A stretch of 64,000 nt of DNA from Belliella baltica DSM 15883 (GTDB taxonomy: Bacteria > Bacteroidota > Bacteroidia > Cytophagales > Cyclobacteriaceae). Position numbers and translations under genes: made by a program. A model generated the notes under the pieces. The model saw only the letters and a program-made list of their open reading frames with translations, searched no databases and was not told where the DNA came from. Location: assembly GCF_000265405.1 (NCBI RefSeq), contig NC_018010.1, forward strand, positions 3,679,501 to 3,743,500, in the 5' to 3' direction. Of this stretch, positions 1,796 through 53,481 are shown one piece after another (position 1 is the stretch's first letter; every line of letters begins with the position of its first letter).

Positions 1796-1825
1796 TTGGA
1801 GTAGAGAATTTTTGACTTACCTTTG
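1796..1825 (+). promoter_or_regulatory. Promoter of the SRP RNA gene
   Basis: TTG at 1796-1798, 19-base spacer, then TACCTTTG at 1818-1825, an exact TAnnTTTG box. The RNA begins about 5 bases further on. Confidence 0.85.
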
Positions 1826-1829
1826 TGTC

Positions 1830-1918
1830 GGCGGTACGACCAGCTCCTGCTGAATCCCCCAGGTCCGGAAGGAAGCAAGGGTAGGCGGTCGTAGCGGTGC
1901 GATACCGCCTCTTTTTTT
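1830..1918 (+). ncRNA. ffs: Signal recognition particle RNA (small bacterial 4.5S type)
   Basis: The core carries the diagnostic apical loop AGGTCCGGAAGGAAGCA (1861-1877), the Ffh-binding part of SRP RNA. The flanking arms pair: GGCGGTACGACC at the 5' side with GGTCGTAGCGG and ATACCGCC at the 3' side. The gene is short, as in most Gram-negative bacteria, and ends in a GC-rich stem followed by a run of T (1912-1919) that acts as terminator. A consensus promoter lies directly upstream. The RNA works with Ffh and FtsY to target inner-membrane proteins. Confidence 0.96.
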
Positions 1919-47346: not shown

Positions 47347-47586
47347 ATGAATAGTGCAGAAGAAATCAGAAATAGCATAATAGACCAGCTATTAACTATT
47401 TCAAACAAGGAATATCTAAAAGCTATATTTGAAATCATAAATAATAGCAAAAAAGAAGGTGAAAAAATTCAACTTTCAGATGCCCAAATTGCGATGCTAA
47501 ATATGAGCGAGGAAGATATCAAAAAGAACCGACTAATTTCTCAAGAAGATTTGGATGAATCAGATTTAAAATGGCTAGAAAGTTAA
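47347..47586 (+). CDS. Antitoxin-like small protein of a ParE/RelE-type pair
   Basis: 79 residues, helical and acidic: MNSAEEIRNSIIDQLLTISNKEYLKAIFEIIN, then QLSDAQIAMLNMSEEDIKKNRLISQEDLDESDLKWLE. Such two-helix plus acidic-tail proteins are common antitoxins to ParE/RelE toxins in Bacteroidota. Its last 16 bases overlap the toxin gene, which is the usual antitoxin-first layout. No DNA-binding domain of a named family is evident, so autoregulation is uncertain. Confidence 0.82.
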   Translation: MNSAEEIRNSIIDQLLTISNKEYLKAIFEIINNSKKEGEKIQLSDAQIAMLNMSEEDIKKNRLISQEDLDESDLKWLES

Positions 47587-47879
47587 TAATTTGGACCAAA
47601 ACAGCAGTTCGCCAAAGACGTGAAATTCTTAAGTATTGGGTGAATAGAAATAAATCTAACACCTATTCAAAAAAGTTGATCAAGAAGATCAAAAATAAAG
47701 TGACTTTTATATCAGAGAACCCAGAAGCGGGGAAATTGACTAATCATAAGGACAGCAGAGAATCTGCAATGGAAAACTTTAGCAGTTACTATCAAATTGT
47801 CGAAGAATCAATCATCATCACTGCATTTTGGGATAATCGACAAGACCCAGATGAGTTAATTAAAATTTTAAAGTCATAG
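47571..47879 (+). CDS. ParE/RelE superfamily toxin
   Basis: 102 residues: MARKLIIWTKTAVRQRREILKYWVNRNKSNTYSKKLIKKIKNKVTFI, then NPEAGKLTNHKDSRESAMENFSSYYQIVEESIIITAFWDNRQDPDELIKIL. The W-N-R-N-S-YS-KL block and FWDNRQDP end are typical of the ParE/RelE toxin fold. Basic (many Lys/Arg), unlike its acidic partner. Target cannot be told from sequence: ParE acts on gyrase, RelE on ribosome-bound mRNA. Shares 16 bases with the antitoxin gene. Confidence 0.87.
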   Translation: MARKLIIWTKTAVRQRREILKYWVNRNKSNTYSKKLIKKIKNKVTFISENPEAGKLTNHKDSRESAMENFSSYYQIVEESIIITAFWDNRQDPDELIKILKS

Positions 47880-48570: not shown

Positions 48571-48601
48571 TTTTGTCTTTGATCAATTACTCTTATTTTA
48601 G
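48571..48601 (+). promoter_or_regulatory. Promoter of the esterase/amide-ligase operon
   Basis: TTTTG (48571-48575), 18-base spacer, TATTTTAG (48594-48601; 7 of 8 in TAnnTTTG). Start expected near 48607, about 15 bases before the ATG at 48622. Together with the tight gene spacing it defines one operon of five genes. Confidence 0.6.
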
Positions 48602-48621
48602 ACAATATTGATTCAAAGCAT

Positions 48622-49335
48622 ATGAAAGAAGAATATTTTAAATGGCATTCTCCAAATCTAAATCGGCAAGTGGAAATGTTAGTTTTTGGCCATGCGGGTT
48701 ATCCAGTTGTTTTATTTCCTACTTCCATGGGTTCATTCCACGAAAATAAAGACATGGGTTTGATTGAAAAATCAAGATGGTATTTAGAACAAGGCTTGAT
48801 TCAAATTTTCTGCCCTGAGAGCAATGATAAAAACAGTTTTTATAACAAAGGCATTCATTCCCATGATAGGATTCAAAACCATGTTGCCTATGATAAAATG
48901 ATCAATCATGAAGTTGTCGAAAGAATTCGCCATAACACAGCAGTAGGAAAAGTTGCTATGGCGGGTTGTAGCTTTGGAGGTTATCACGCTGCAAATTATG
49001 CCTTTCGTCATCCTGGATATATAAGCCATATGTTCTCCATGTCTGGAGCTTTTGACATTCGCAGCTTTATGCATGGATACGAGTACGATGACATATTCTA
49101 TCATTCACCCTTAGAGTTTTTGAATGGGCTCAATGATCCAGAACTTTGGAACATGGATATTGTCTTAGGCACCTCGAATTGGGATATTTGTTTTGATGCG
49201 AACATCAAGCTCAGTGATATTTTGGAACAAAAAGGCATAAGACATTGGCTTGATGTAAGAAAAGATAAAAATCATGATTGGCCATTATGGAAAGAAATGT
49301 TTCCACATTATTTATCAAGAATAAAATTTAACTAA
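48622..49335 (+). CDS. Esterase-D-like alpha/beta hydrolase
   Basis: 237 residues, no signal peptide. Nucleophile elbow GCSFGGYHAANYAFRHP (about 114-130, Ser in GCSFGG), with acid and His candidates in the second half (MDIVLGTSNWDICFDANIKLS; DKNHDWPLWKEMFPHYL, His). The starting part (YFKWHSPNLNRQVEMLVFGHAGYPVVLFPTSMGSFHENKDMG) is typical of the COG4947 esterase group. First gene of the operon, 13 bases before the ATP-grasp gene, so it may release or trim the ligase products. Substrate unknown. Confidence 0.88.
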   Translation: MKEEYFKWHSPNLNRQVEMLVFGHAGYPVVLFPTSMGSFHENKDMGLIEKSRWYLEQGLIQIFCPESNDKNSFYNKGIHSHDRIQNHVAYDKMINHEVVERIRHNTAVGKVAMAGCSFGGYHAANYAFRHPGYISHMFSMSGAFDIRSFMHGYEYDDIFYHSPLEFLNGLNDPELWNMDIVLGTSNWDICFDANIKLSDILEQKGIRHWLDVRKDKNHDWPLWKEMFPHYLSRIKFN

Positions 49336-49348
49336 AGTATATCATCTT

Positions 49349-50305
49349 ATGAAAAAAATAGGAATCCTTTTTGGTATGGAAGATACTTTTCCCCATGCAT
49401 TTATCGAAAGAGTAAACGAAAAAAATGAAAAAGGCATAGTAGCAGAGGCAGTAAGCATTGATAAAGTAATACAAAACCAACTTACAGAATATGCTGTAAT
49501 TATTGACCGGATATCTCAAGATGTTCCCTTCTACAGAGCCTATTTGAAAAATGCAGCCTTGACAGGTACTGCTGTTATCAATAATCCATTTTGGTGGTCT
49601 GCTGATGACAAGTTTTTCAACAATGCCTTGGCAGATACCTTGGGCGTCCCCCTACCCAACACAGTAATCTTACCTTCTGCCGAGCATCCTACGGATACCA
49701 CTGCGAAGTCATTTAGAAATTTGGCTATGCCAATGGATTGGCAGGCGATCTTCGATTATGTGAAATTTCCTGCTTACATGAAGCCGTATGCAGGCGGAGG
49801 ATGGAAAAATGTATATAGATTGGAAAGTAAAGAAGAATTTTTCCAAAAACACCAAGAAACTGGGCAACTCGTCATGATGCTTCAGGAAGAAATTGTTTTT
49901 ACAGAGTATTTTAGAGTTTACTGTTTGGGAGGAAAAGCCGTTCGCATCATGCAATATGAACCTCGTAATCCGCATCATCTTCGCTACGTCATCGATGGGC
50001 CGCCAGTCTCTAAAAAGTTGCTTGCAAAAGTAAAAGAATATACGCTAACCCTGTGTAAGGGATTAGGCTACGATTTCAATACTGTAGAATTTGCAGTGAG
50101 AGATGGTATTCCGTATGCGATTGATTTTGGCAACCCAGCTCCAGATGCAGATATCAATTCTGTTGGTCAGGAGAATTTTGATTGGGTAGTTGAAGAAGCT
50201 GCTAAAATGGCAATTGCCTATGCAAAGAGCCAAAAACCTGGGAAAATAAATCTTACATGGGGCACATTTATGAAAAATGCCGTGAGTTCAGCAAAACGTT
50301 TTTAA
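49349..50305 (+). CDS. ATP-grasp ligase of the amide-ligase operon
   Basis: 318 residues. N-terminal pre-grasp region (MKKIGILFGMEDTFPHAFIERVNEK), then the grasp fold: DKFFNNALADTLGVPLPNTVIL, VKFPAYMKPYAGGGWKNVYRL (nucleotide-binding Lys and Gly loop), MMLQEEIVFTEYFRVYCLGGKAVRIMQYEP and VEFAVRDGIPYAIDFGNPAPDADI (metal-binding Glu/Asp/Asn region). These are the RimK/D-Ala-D-Ala-like ligase elements that activate a carboxylate as acyl phosphate and attach it to an amine. Only 2 bases separate it from the GCS2 ligase. Confidence 0.9.
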   Translation: MKKIGILFGMEDTFPHAFIERVNEKNEKGIVAEAVSIDKVIQNQLTEYAVIIDRISQDVPFYRAYLKNAALTGTAVINNPFWWSADDKFFNNALADTLGVPLPNTVILPSAEHPTDTTAKSFRNLAMPMDWQAIFDYVKFPAYMKPYAGGGWKNVYRLESKEEFFQKHQETGQLVMMLQEEIVFTEYFRVYCLGGKAVRIMQYEPRNPHHLRYVIDGPPVSKKLLAKVKEYTLTLCKGLGYDFNTVEFAVRDGIPYAIDFGNPAPDADINSVGQENFDWVVEEAAKMAIAYAKSQKPGKINLTWGTFMKNAVSSAKRF

Positions 50306-50307
50306 AG

Positions 50308-51414
50308 ATGAAAAAATTACCAATTTTTACTTTAGGAGTAGAAGAAGAGTACCAGATTATCGATCCTGACACCAGAGATTTGCGCTCTCACATGTCCAAA
50401 ATCGTGGATGGAGCAAAGATTTTCCTCAAAGAGCAAGTCAAATCTGAAATGCACCAATCGGTGGTGGAAGTAGGAACCAACATTTGTAATAATGTAGCGG
50501 ATGCCAAAAAGGAAGTAGCTTTCTTGCGTCACAAGATCGTAGAGCTTGCTGCGAAACAAGAATTGATCGTTGGAGCTGCAGGAACACATCCTTTCTCCAA
50601 ATGGCAAGAGCAAGCCATCACGGATGATCCAAGATACCATCACATCATCAATGAACTTCAAGACACTGCACGATCCAACTTAATTTTTGGTCTTCATGTT
50701 CACGTGGGAATCGAAAATCGAGATATTGCCTTGAAGATAATGAATCAGGCTTGTTACTTCTTGCCACATATCTATGCACTATCAGCAAATTCTCCATTTT
50801 GGGAAGGAAGAAACACTGGTTTCAAGGCATACAGAGCCAAAGTTTTTGCGAAATTCCCTAGAACAGGTTTGCCAGAGTATTTTGATTCTGTTCAGTCTTA
50901 TGATAACTATCTTGATACTTTAGTAAAAACCAACTGTATTGACAATCCAAAAAAAATCTGGTGGGATTTGAGAATGCATCCATTTTTCAGCACGATAGAA
51001 TTTAGAATTTGTGATATGTGCCTTACTGTACAAGAAACAATTTGTATAGTTGCTTTAATACAAGCTGTAGTCGCCAAGCTTTACAAAATGAATCTAATGA
51101 ACACAAGTTTCAATATCTACAGAATCGCTTTGATCAGAGAAAATAAGTTCAGAGCTGCACGATATGGAATTGAAGGAAAAATGATTGATTTTGGTGAAAA
51201 GAAGGAAGTCGAGTACAAAGATTTGATGGTCGAGCTCTTGGATTTTGTAGATGATGTAGTGGATGAATTGGGAAGTAGAGAAGAAATCAATTATGTTCAT
51301 CAAATCTTGGCTGAAGGAACAGGAGCAGATAAGCAGTTGAAAGTTTGGGAAGACACTCAGGATCTAAATAAAGTTGTAGATTTAATTACAGATCAATTTA
51401 CAAAAGGAATATAA
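50308..51414 (+). CDS. GCS2-type carboxylate-amine ligase (YbdK family)
   Basis: 368 residues from ATG 50308 (MKKLPIFTLGVEEEYQIIDP); the earlier start at 50257 lies inside the ATP-grasp gene. Family motifs: LGVEEEYQIIDPDTRDLR, VVEVGTNICNNVADAKKEV, IFGLHVHVGIENRDIAL, and TIEFRICDMCLTVQETI. These are related to glutamate-cysteine ligase (GCS2), which couples a gamma-carboxylate to an amine. Real substrates for the YbdK branch are mostly unknown. Second ligase of the operon, working next to an ATP-grasp enzyme and an amidotransferase. Confidence 0.93.
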   Translation: MKKLPIFTLGVEEEYQIIDPDTRDLRSHMSKIVDGAKIFLKEQVKSEMHQSVVEVGTNICNNVADAKKEVAFLRHKIVELAAKQELIVGAAGTHPFSKWQEQAITDDPRYHHIINELQDTARSNLIFGLHVHVGIENRDIALKIMNQACYFLPHIYALSANSPFWEGRNTGFKAYRAKVFAKFPRTGLPEYFDSVQSYDNYLDTLVKTNCIDNPKKIWWDLRMHPFFSTIEFRICDMCLTVQETICIVALIQAVVAKLYKMNLMNTSFNIYRIALIRENKFRAARYGIEGKMIDFGEKKEVEYKDLMVELLDFVDDVVDELGSREEINYVHQILAEGTGADKQLKVWEDTQDLNKVVDLITDQFTKGI

Positions 51415-51464
51415 AATCCTAAATGAAACCCTCCTATCTTTGAGAAATTTAAAAAAGCGTGACT

Positions 51465-52280
51465 ATGATTAATGTGGCGATTTTGGATATGAATAATGGG
51501 GAGCCCAATCAAGGGATGCGCTGCATTAAAGAAATTGTTGGGAGGTTTGAGGAGGAATTGACTTTTCAGATTTTTGATGTTCGAGTACACTCACAAATTC
51601 CAAAAATTGAAGATTTCGATCTATATGTTTCATCTGGAGGTCCAGGAAATCCTTTAGAAGGAAATGGAGACTGGGAAATAAAATATGCCCGGTTTCTAAT
51701 GGATTTGATGGAATGGAATAAAGTCAACAGCAAGAAAAAATACTTATTGCTAATTTGTCATTCCTTCCAATTGGCTGTTCACACCTTTGGCCTAGCGGCG
51801 ATTACAAAAAGGAAATCAAACTCTTTTGGAGTGATGTCCATTCACAAAACAGATTTGGGATTTGAAGATCCATTATTCGAAAACCTTGAAAACCCATTTT
51901 GGGCGGTAGATTCTAGAGACTTTCAAGTAGTCCAACCAAGGATGAAGCGGTTTAAAGAAATGGGAGCAAAAGTAATTGCCTTAGAAAAAATCCGATCACA
52001 TTTAGAATATGAAAGAGCTTTGATGGGGATTCGTTTTTCCAACGAAATCGTAGGGACACAATTTCATCCAGAAGCTGACCCAGTGAGTTTTATGAATCAC
52101 TTGAGAAAGGAAGATGTCAAACAAAAAATAATCGCCCAAAAAGGAAAAGCGAAGTACAGGACTATGCTAGAGCATTTGGTAGATGAAGATAAAATCTATA
52201 AAACTAATGAAACGCTTATTCCAAATTTCTTAAAAAATGCGATAAAACAGATAAAAGAACAGGCTTTAATTTTCCATTAA
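51465..52280 (+). CDS. Class I glutamine amidotransferase domain protein
   Basis: 271 residues from ATG 51465; GTG at 51459 is an alternative two codons earlier. A TATCTTTG box at 51435-51442 may be an internal promoter. The triad of class I amidotransferases is visible: nucleophile Cys in LLICHSFQLAVHTFG (about 102-116), and His/Glu in GTQFHPEADPVS (about 193-204), with oxyanion-loop SSGGPGNPLEG. It should release ammonia from glutamine for an amide-forming partner. No synthase domain is fused, so it probably feeds one of the ligases. Starts 50 bases after GCS2. Confidence 0.9.
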   Translation: MINVAILDMNNGEPNQGMRCIKEIVGRFEEELTFQIFDVRVHSQIPKIEDFDLYVSSGGPGNPLEGNGDWEIKYARFLMDLMEWNKVNSKKKYLLLICHSFQLAVHTFGLAAITKRKSNSFGVMSIHKTDLGFEDPLFENLENPFWAVDSRDFQVVQPRMKRFKEMGAKVIALEKIRSHLEYERALMGIRFSNEIVGTQFHPEADPVSFMNHLRKEDVKQKIIAQKGKAKYRTMLEHLVDEDKIYKTNETLIPNFLKNAIKQIKEQALIFH

Positions 52281-52287
52281 GTATATC

Positions 52288-53481
52288 ATGATTGAGCACT
52301 ACAGAAAGCACTTCAATAGCCAATTTAGTCAAGAGAAACATGGCGATTTTATTCAAGATATTGCAAATGATTTTGACTACTTGCCTACTTTCCGCATTGC
52401 AGAAACACCTTTTTTTATCTCCAATGAGTTAAAAAGTCAATTACTTGAAGGAACAAAGCAAGTTATTGACTTTATCAAAAGACCTGATTTCAAAACACTC
52501 ACGCAAAGAGCTTTGGATCTCAACACAGAAGTACCAAATGAAGATTTACATACCCAATTTCTTGCCATCGACTTTGGAATCTGTGAAGAAAATGGCCAAA
52601 TTATCCCCAAGCTCATTGAGGTACAAGGTTTCCCCTCTGTATTCAATTTTCAGCAAAATCTATTTGATAAATTTTTAAATCATTACCCATTTTTAAAAGA
52701 ATTCAGTCCATATTTTGAAGGATTGGATAAAGCAAGTTTTTTAGCCAAACTTAAGGAATCAATCCTAAATGGTCATGATGAAAAAAATGTCGTTTTATTA
52801 GAAATTGAACCAGAAAAACAAAATACTAAAATTGATTTTTATTATTGTAGAAGGGATTTAAAAATCCCAATAGTCTGTGTCACAGAAATAATCAAGAGAG
52901 AAAAAAAACTCTTCTACAAAAATGACCAAGGGAATGAAATCCAAATTCATAGAATCTACAATCGGGTTATTTTTGATGAATTGAATTTGAGAAAAGATCT
53001 AAAATTAGAATTTGATTTTAGGGAAGAATTAGATGTGGAGTGGGCAGGTCATCCTAACTGGTTTTTTAGAATCAGTAAATATATACTCCCTTACTTGCAC
53101 GGGCCATATTTCATAGACTCTACTCTTCTAAGTGAACTTAAAGAGATTCCTGATGATTTGGAAAATTATGTATTGAAGCCTCTTTTTTCATTTTCAGGGA
53201 GCGGAGTGATTTTCCATGTCAAAAAATCAGATTTAGAGGCGATTAAAGAGCGAGACTTATACATCTTACAAAAAAAAGTTAACTACTCGCCTATACTTCA
53301 AGCTCCTGACGGAATGGTAAAAGCTGAGGTTAGAATCTTATTGGTTTGGCCTGAAAAAGATCAAGAACCTACTTTGATGTCCAACTTGGTTCGTCTGAGT
53401 AGGGGCGAGATGATTGGGGTAAAATTCAATAAAGACAAAGATTGGGTTGGTGGAACCATAGGTCTTTTCGAATCCAAATGA
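52288..53481 (+). CDS. Second ATP-grasp-like ligase (glutathionylspermidine-synthase-like plan)
   Basis: 397 residues, soluble. The central and C-terminal blocks look like an ATP-grasp fold: FIDSTLLSEL, NYVLKPLFSFSGSGVIFHVKK (Lys and Gly-rich loop, about 292-312), LYILQKKVNYSPILQAPDGMVKAEVRILLVW and LSRGEMIGVKFNKDKDWVGGT. Earlier blocks (AIDFGICEENGQIIPKLIEVQGFPSVFNFQQ) carry acidic residues that may bind metal. Sequence similarity to named families is low, so this call is tentative. Starts 7 bases after the amidotransferase and is the last gene of the operon. Confidence 0.7.
   Translation: MIEHYRKHFNSQFSQEKHGDFIQDIANDFDYLPTFRIAETPFFISNELKSQLLEGTKQVIDFIKRPDFKTLTQRALDLNTEVPNEDLHTQFLAIDFGICEENGQIIPKLIEVQGFPSVFNFQQNLFDKFLNHYPFLKEFSPYFEGLDKASFLAKLKESILNGHDEKNVVLLEIEPEKQNTKIDFYYCRRDLKIPIVCVTEIIKREKKLFYKNDQGNEIQIHRIYNRVIFDELNLRKDLKLEFDFREELDVEWAGHPNWFFRISKYILPYLHGPYFIDSTLLSELKEIPDDLENYVLKPLFSFSGSGVIFHVKKSDLEAIKERDLYILQKKVNYSPILQAPDGMVKAEVRILLVWPEKDQEPTLMSNLVRLSRGEMIGVKFNKDKDWVGGTIGLFESK

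Follow-up and report, generated by a model that had tools for sequence, protein, structure and literature searches.

Here, we identify a conserved group of five genes, called A to E, in a window of 64,000 nucleotides (nt) from Belliella baltica DSM 15883 (NC_018010.1, positions 3679501-3743500). We suggest that A to E encode a conserved route to a small metabolite of the amide or peptide type, an explanation to which we give roughly even chances. The predicted families are of the ligase type for B, C and E and of the hydrolase type for A and for two aminopeptidases, of families M29 and M17, that replace or accompany genes of the group. An earlier note on this DNA had described an operon with one promoter, three amide-bond formers, an ammonia source and a hydrolase, making a small amide or peptide or modifying a protein tail. 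The operon-like group itself is present, with all five open reading frames (ORFs) on the + strand, at the following window positions:

48572-48601, + strand: possible Bacteroidetes-type promoter, TTTG-N18-TATTTTAG, read from the sequence upstream of A.
48622-49335, + strand: gene A, serine esterase/hydrolase of the PF00756 type, 237 aa, assigned from a Pfam match and the translation.
49349-50305, + strand: gene B, the core of the system, an ATP-grasp ligase of the RimK/Ddl type (318 aa), assigned from a RimK match below cut-off and conserved residues.
50308-51414, + strand: gene C, carboxylate-amine ligase of the GCS2/YbdK type; the start at 50308 is assumed, in an ORF open from 50257.
51459-52280, + strand: gene D, protein with a class I glutamine amidotransferase (GATase) fold and a Cys/His/Glu triad; GTG start, with an ATG at 51465 possible.
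52288-53481, + strand: gene E, predicted circularly permuted, GspS-like ATP-grasp ligase, 397 aa, assigned from its residue layout.

Evidence of several kinds supports the view that the five genes form one functional unit and probably a conserved pathway. First, the genes are closely spaced and their order is conserved. In the window, they are separated by 13, 2, 44 and 7 nt (with C starting at 50308), and the flanks are wider than these gaps, A being preceded by 183 nt and E followed by 268 nt. The best 80 of 591 confirmed matches from an E-anchored scan, i.e., the nearest relatives of the window, make up our named loci, which by title come from Belliella, Algoriphagus, Cecembia, Flavobacterium and similar Bacteroidota; Belliella proteins are among the closest named relatives of E. 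The order A-B-C-D-E is kept on a single strand in 76 of the 80 named loci, and the synteny on which the earlier note had staked its operon is thus borne out. Three of the exceptions (L040, L062, L088) start at a contig end at or inside gene B, and the last (L068) shows no A or B. Another 40 loci were chosen for diversity among the E-carrying genomes of a phylum sample, giving 120 loci, and median gaps over the 85 of these with full ORF calls are 31, 36, 46 and 15 nt. In the diverse set, all five genes are found in 11 loci, A-B-C-E in four, B-C-E in four, C-D-E in two, and A-B-D-E, B-C-D-E, B-D-E and D-E in one each, with E alone in 15; the A matches in L158, counted among the 11, and in L132, counted under A-B-C-E, are weak and on the opposite strand.

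Second, the genes co-occur even where they are not linked. The phylum sample comprises 296 Bacteroidota genomes, which were searched with E, B, C, D, the M29 variant and a partner gene, F, at E-value thresholds of 1e-3, 1e-20, 1e-30, 1e-10, 1e-20 and 1e-60, respectively; the counts cover B to F and the M29 variant. E is present in 92 genomes (93 before exclusion of a 22-bit match in G085), B in 108, C in 103, D in 70, the strong M29 variant in six and F in 66. All genome counts ignore kinship: the genomes share descent, the events are not independent, and for this reason no weight is placed on Fisher values or on a chance figure of 0.0028 for the lack of any genome with both D and the M29 variant. 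E and B are both present in 89 genomes, with E only in three, B only in 19 and neither in 185; for E and C the numbers are 87 both, five E only, 16 C only and 188 neither, and for B and D 69 both, 39 B only, one D only and 187 neither. In 41 of the 89 genomes with E and B, the two genes do not share a contig at a distance of 8 kb or less; they lie further apart on the same contig in eight genomes and on different contigs in 30, and three are apparent contig breaks (G104, G146, G286). That B and E co-occur while unlinked indicates that their association is more than a shared neighbourhood. E is found in six of the eight genomes of the window's genus, the window's included, with no match in G003 and G007, and the system is thus variable within the genus.

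Third, E is exchanged in evolution with a second enzyme, X, of about 450-480 aa. X was searched for in the 111 genomes with E or B at an E-value threshold of 1e-20. It is present in all 15 genomes that carry B and D without E, in one of the 92 genomes with E (G174, 373 bits versus 675-888) and in none of the four remaining genomes with B. E or X is therefore present in 104 of the 108 B-carrying genomes; among complete B matches, those of the remaining four score lowest (231-381 bits). In 14 of the 15 genomes, X is located between B and D, and in G325 it follows B, with D on another contig; its position was read directly in 12 loci of 11 genomes. Of two X proteins tested against CP_ATPgrasp_2 (PF14403, cut-off 32), one scores 37.3 bits (L162) and the other 24.3 bits (L166), and X matches the solved putative glutathionylspermidine synthase 3n6x with an E-value of 2.4e-8. 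Given that X matches a family of circularly permuted ATP-grasps, its exchange with E supports the same assignment for E. The residues of E point the same way. Asp95, Glu111, Gln113, Lys264, Lys297, Gly304, Gly306, Glu347 and Arg349 are invariant in 21 of 21 aligned E proteins, and Asn381 is present in 18 of them; Arg134, Asp136, Glu148 and Asn150 precede Lys368 in seven of seven X proteins, and Arg87, Asp89, Glu101 and Asn103 precede a Lys in two GSP_synth proteins. An Asp...Glu-x-(Asn/Gln) motif before a conserved Lys is thus common to E, X and the two GSP_synth proteins, in an order that we take to be that of a circularly permuted ATP-grasp, with the residue roles presumed and assigned by eye; E also carries the Glu-x-Arg motif expected of such enzymes, as Glu347 and Arg349. 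In profile comparison, E reaches a probability of 64.7% with the two GSP_synth proteins and 0.4% with B; nine of the 21 aligned E proteins match GSP_synth weakly (E-values up to 1, best 3.7e-4), and the closest solved chain to E is YgiC (E-value 0.025). From this layout, a circularly permuted ATP-grasp is the best reading of E, and the second ATP-grasp-like enzyme of the earlier note appears to have been correctly recognized.

Two arrangements around E were seen besides. In two genomes of one genus (G162, G307), E is fused in frame behind a sodium/solute symporter-like domain (L199:2137-4740 and L200:2984-4450); the domain, tested on L199, scores 160 bits against TIGR00813, with a cut-off of 184. 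The fusion may hint at transport of a substrate or product. In distant lineages, an Amidohydro_3 protein immediately precedes E in four loci (L125, L128, L130, L160) and lies between C and D in L158, with the family tested on L125 and L158.

Fourth, D is exchanged with an unrelated peptidase, and this bears directly on what D does. D matches PF00117 with 41.4 bits (cut-off 22.8), has an invariant Gly-Gly-Pro-Gly loop and carries Cys100, His203 and Glu205 in all 18 aligned proteins, that of the window among them; the triad is intact, as had been noted before. Where linked, D adjoins E, or X in the variant operon. These features would suit a scenario in which D acts as a glutaminase and supplies E or X with ammonia, so that a terminal-amide peptide is formed, such as a compatible solute resembling N-acetylglutaminylglutamine amide (NAGGN). 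We regard this scenario as unlikely in light of four observations. A distinct M29 aminopeptidase is found in six genomes (534-687 bits), none of which has D, and in five of the six it lies between C and E, in the slot of D, with G243 carrying it elsewhere; two proteins tested score 55.8 and 63.5 bits against PF02073 (cut-off 27), and putative metal ligands read by eye, Glu268, Glu288, His294, His314 and Asp316, are identical in four of four. Moreover, among the 89 genomes with E and B, 54 have D, six the M29 variant, none both and 29 neither, so that D is missing from 35, and in several others it is unlinked. The nucleophile elbow of D is LICHSFQ in the window, with Cys100, Ser102 and Gln104 in 18 of 18 proteins, rather than the Gly-x-Cys-x-Gly usual in class I glutaminases. 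Finally, none of A to E matches an NCBIfam model of the NAGGN type at E-values up to 1. That one slot is shared by two unrelated amide hydrolases speaks for hydrolysis and against a supply of ammonia. D is thus doubtful as an ammonia source and likelier to be an amide hydrolase, perhaps of gamma-glutamyl bonds, and of the three amide-bond formers with an ammonia source proposed in the earlier note, the three ligase-type enzymes stand. The 29 genomes with neither D nor the M29 variant may have a third solution or none.

The remaining genes fit into families as follows. C is a clear member of PF04107 (203.8 bits, cut-off 21) and NF010039 (523 bits, cut-off 371), and its nearest solved structure is YbdK (1r8g, 227.7 bits). 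B is below the cut-off of the RimK family (TIGR00768, 30.4 bits versus 143.4) and has a profile match to the D-Ala-D-Ala ligase 3r23 (E-value 0.0019); Lys145, Glu180, Glu247, Asp259 and Asn262 are invariant in 18 of 18 aligned B proteins, and we take them to bind ATP and metal, having assigned these roles by eye. A matches PF00756 with 27 bits (cut-off 22), and its putative catalytic residues, with roles assigned by eye, are Ser117 (13 of 14 aligned proteins), Asp188 (14 of 14) and His218 (13 of 14). Two recurrent neighbours of B or C were also seen. A protein of the histidine-ammonia-lyase type lies near B in six loci from six genomes of one family (PF00221 tested on one, L180), which could be local synteny, and three loci from two families have an AMP-binding enzyme, identified by eye, next to B or C.

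The group has partners outside the window, and in this respect the five-gene set of the earlier note, although supported as a unit, is incomplete. F, an L-amino-acid-ligase-like enzyme, is present in 66 of the 296 genomes, all 66 of which carry B. Among solved L-amino acid ligases, it matches 4wd3, which we take to be RizA, with 89.2 bits (E-value 2.3e-24), 3vot with 52.7 bits and BacD (3wo1) with 38.5 bits. In many Flavobacterium loci, F, an M17 aminopeptidase and a second esterase form a unit on the opposite strand downstream of E; in L148 the unit lies upstream of A, with the esterase cut by the end of the stretch, and in the variant cluster L162 an esterase and F follow D. Where F lies apart from A to E (14 loci), esterase-M17-F is found in five, an adjacent esterase without M17 in two, an esterase one gene away in one and neither in six. 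The genome of the window has esterase-M17-F at C1:3770508-3774427, 27-31 kb past the right end of the window.

From the genes, their order, their co-occurrence, the exchanges and the motifs described above, we infer every activity, the order of the steps, the product, the role of D and the gamma-glutamyl step in the following model. C would join an amino acid to an amine, most likely through an amide of the gamma-glutamyl type. B and E, the latter replaced by X in another lineage, would carry out two further ATP-dependent carboxylate-amine ligations, with E acting like glutathionylspermidine synthetase through its permuted ATP-grasp. D, or the M29 aminopeptidase in its place, would hydrolyse one amide bond, thereby removing a protecting or carrier amino acid or recycling the product. 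An ester or thioester of an intermediate may be cleaved by A and by the related esterase among the partner genes, and the partner genes would also contribute the L-amino-acid-ligase-like F and the M17 aminopeptidase.

Beyond shared descent, several observations weigh against this model. E misses the cut-off of GSP_synth (PF03738, 13.6 versus 29.3 bits), and the profile comparison of E with X is weak (11.3%). E occurs with none of A to D nearby in the 15 selected diverse loci mentioned above, C is absent from five of the 89 genomes with E and B, and C is matched in nine of the 296 genomes without B or E. The 29 genomes lacking both hydrolases belong here too, as does the location of D apart from the other genes in several genomes. 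Weaker M29 relatives (33 matches, 86-132 bits versus 534-687) also occur, in part in genomes that have D or the strong variant as well; these were excluded and are taken as other enzymes, and the exclusivity of D and M29 is limited to the strong variant. Lastly, the gamma-glutamyl step is founded on the family of C and on precedents.

The same genes might instead serve catabolism, with C gamma-glutamylating an amine or amino acid, the other enzymes processing it and D releasing glutamate. We consider this improbable. The pairing of a ligase with a gamma-glutamyl hydrolase follows the logic of the Puu pathway, in which, according to PMC9397018, ATP-dependent gamma-glutamylation is followed by the gamma-glutamyl hydrolase PuuD. 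The symporter-E fusion in two genomes of one genus is likewise in keeping with this reading. However, two to three extra ligases would be unneeded in such a route, and the neighbour proteins annotated include no oxidase or aldehyde dehydrogenase, many neighbours being left unannotated. This negative is tempered by an oxidoreductase-like family, identified by eye, that recurs in 13 of the 120 loci, two of them in the diverse set.

Modification of a protein or peptide tail, the second possibility raised in the earlier note, fares slightly worse and is a rather improbable rival. Here, the RimK-like B would add residues and D, M29 or M17 would remove them. B is RimK-like, and several B homologues have Lys/Ala-rich ends; these C-terminal tails are long in six loci (L143, L144, L146, L150, L152, L156), and the window's B is without one. 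Against tail modification, 118 loci were scanned, up to 700 nt from A or E, for the small peptide gene that the earlier note had proposed to look for, and no ORF of 22-95 codons proved widely conserved, targets encoded elsewhere not having been searched for. The most recurrent family of short ORFs is present in 26 of the 118 loci and by eye looks antisense to the upstream gene, and the others reach at most nine. The association with an L-amino-acid-ligase-like enzyme also seems to point to free small molecules. Separately, a conserved gene of about 131 codons (fam5) lies upstream of A in 44 of the 120 loci (e.g., L058, L154), one of the 44 being in the diverse set.

It is very unlikely that D is instead a MetA-related acyltransferase that acylates an amino acid for the ligases to use. 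Four of the 18 D proteins do match MetA models (best E-value 3.7e-6), the second best solved match of D is a homoserine O-succinyltransferase (E-value 0.0019) and several JGI names among the 120 listed D homologues read homoserine O-succinyltransferase. Two glutamine amidotransferase models, in contrast, match all 18 proteins with better best E-values, the best solved match of D is an uncharacterised protein and not MetA, and the exchange with a peptidase fits hydrolysis. Public naming of D homologues is inconsistent in this respect, and two of the 120 listed carry PF04204. That the five genes are chance neighbours of unrelated function, for which the 15 diverse loci with E by itself might be invoked, is hardly credible given the order in 76 of 80 loci, the unlinked co-occurrence and the exchanges of E with X and of D with M29.

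The promoter of the earlier note, placed at 48571-48601 and said to serve one likely transcript, holds up in part. The pattern, modelled on the Bacteroidetes consensus, is there at 48572-48601. It is absent upstream of A in all of 89 other loci (0/89; shuffles: mean 1.9), although four of five upstream stretches examined (L013, L014, L016, L023) have a T-tract ending in TTTG at about the same distance. Upstream of D, the pattern is present in 11 of 97 loci and commoner than in shuffles (mean 1.1, maximum 5). With the pattern in none of 89 loci before A but in 11 of 97 before D, transcription as one unit from A is plausible without being established, and D may possibly have its own internal start in some relatives.

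Multi-amidoligase neighbourhoods with peptidases are a known, predicted kind. Iyer and co-workers reportedly predicted neighbourhoods of ATP-grasp and COG2170 amidoligases in 2009, which also combine several peptide-type ligases with peptidases and hydrolases and, like ours, have no known product. The exchanges of E with X and of D with M29 and the link to F come from the present analysis. The NAGGN osmolyte trio also brings together an ATP-grasp ligase, an amidotransferase and an aminopeptidase in one locus, but the amidotransferase and peptidase are of other families and no model of the trio is matched by A to E. In ergothioneine synthesis, the GCS-type EgtA supplies a gamma-glutamyl group that is later removed by EgtC, which is called a glutamine amidotransferase; the pairing resembles that of C and D, but EgtC is class II and C is far below the cut-off of the EgtA model (11.5 versus 370.8 bits). 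In the Puu pathway, PuuD has a class I GATase fold and gamma-glutamylation and hydrolysis are paired as proposed for C and D, but PuuA is glutamine-synthetase-like, C is GCS2 and extra ATP-grasp ligases are found here. The L-amino acid ligases RizA, BL00235 and BacD are matched by F, which differs from them in accompanying a B-E core, in some loci together with the M17 aminopeptidase and an esterase. As for precursors of graspetide-type ribosomally synthesized and post-translationally modified peptides, no widely conserved 22-95-codon ORF was found near A or E, the upstream gene of about 131 codons not having been assessed as a precursor. Another precedent is glutathionylspermidine synthetase/amidase (PMC9397018), in which one pathway includes both a ligase and an amide hydrolase. 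The E. coli enzyme GspS and the present group have this combination in common, and E shares the Asp...Glu-x-(Asn/Gln) motif before a Lys with the two GSP_synth proteins; in contrast to GspS, E is below the PF03738 cut-off and the hydrolase is a separate protein. PMC4431377 further states that linked peptide ligases often act in succession.

Among neighbouring genes, a gamma-carbonic anhydrase was considered as a further part of the system and rejected, being linked in loci of the Algoriphagus, Cecembia and Aquiflexum types and in zero Flavobacterium loci; a pnt gene (linked in five of the 80 named loci) and a ParE-like gene (none of 80) were rejected as well. The window has an ORF resembling a ParE/RelE-type toxin at 47571-47879 (+ strand; PF05016, 36.6 bits), upstream of the gamma-carbonic anhydrase. 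At the gathering threshold, Rfam gave a small SRP RNA at 1823-1913 (+ strand; RF04183, Bacteroidales_small_SRP, 76.8 bits) as the sole match in the window.

Altogether, the group is marked by the fixed gene order, the core with two ATP-grasps, the exchanges of E with X and of D with M29 and the associated partner genes, with the two exchanges as the main new result. In the literature searched, we found no publication on the five-gene cluster and no product, in agreement with the earlier note. We tentatively suggest that the genes make a new amide or peptide of Bacteroidota, e.g., a gamma-glutamyl peptide, a polyamine conjugate, a thiol or an osmolyte, using two obligatory ATP-grasps, a GCS2 ligase and a partner resembling L-amino acid ligases, with the permuted ATP-grasp and the amide hydrolase each replaced in evolution; we hold this more specific proposal to be possible rather than probable. 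The enzyme exchanges suggest that the steps that matter are two ligations and one hydrolysis, and thereby leave fewer candidates for the product. The system is found in about one in three of the 296 genomes sampled, with E in 92 and X in 15 without E, and the small number of genes involved would make an unknown metabolite class directly testable.

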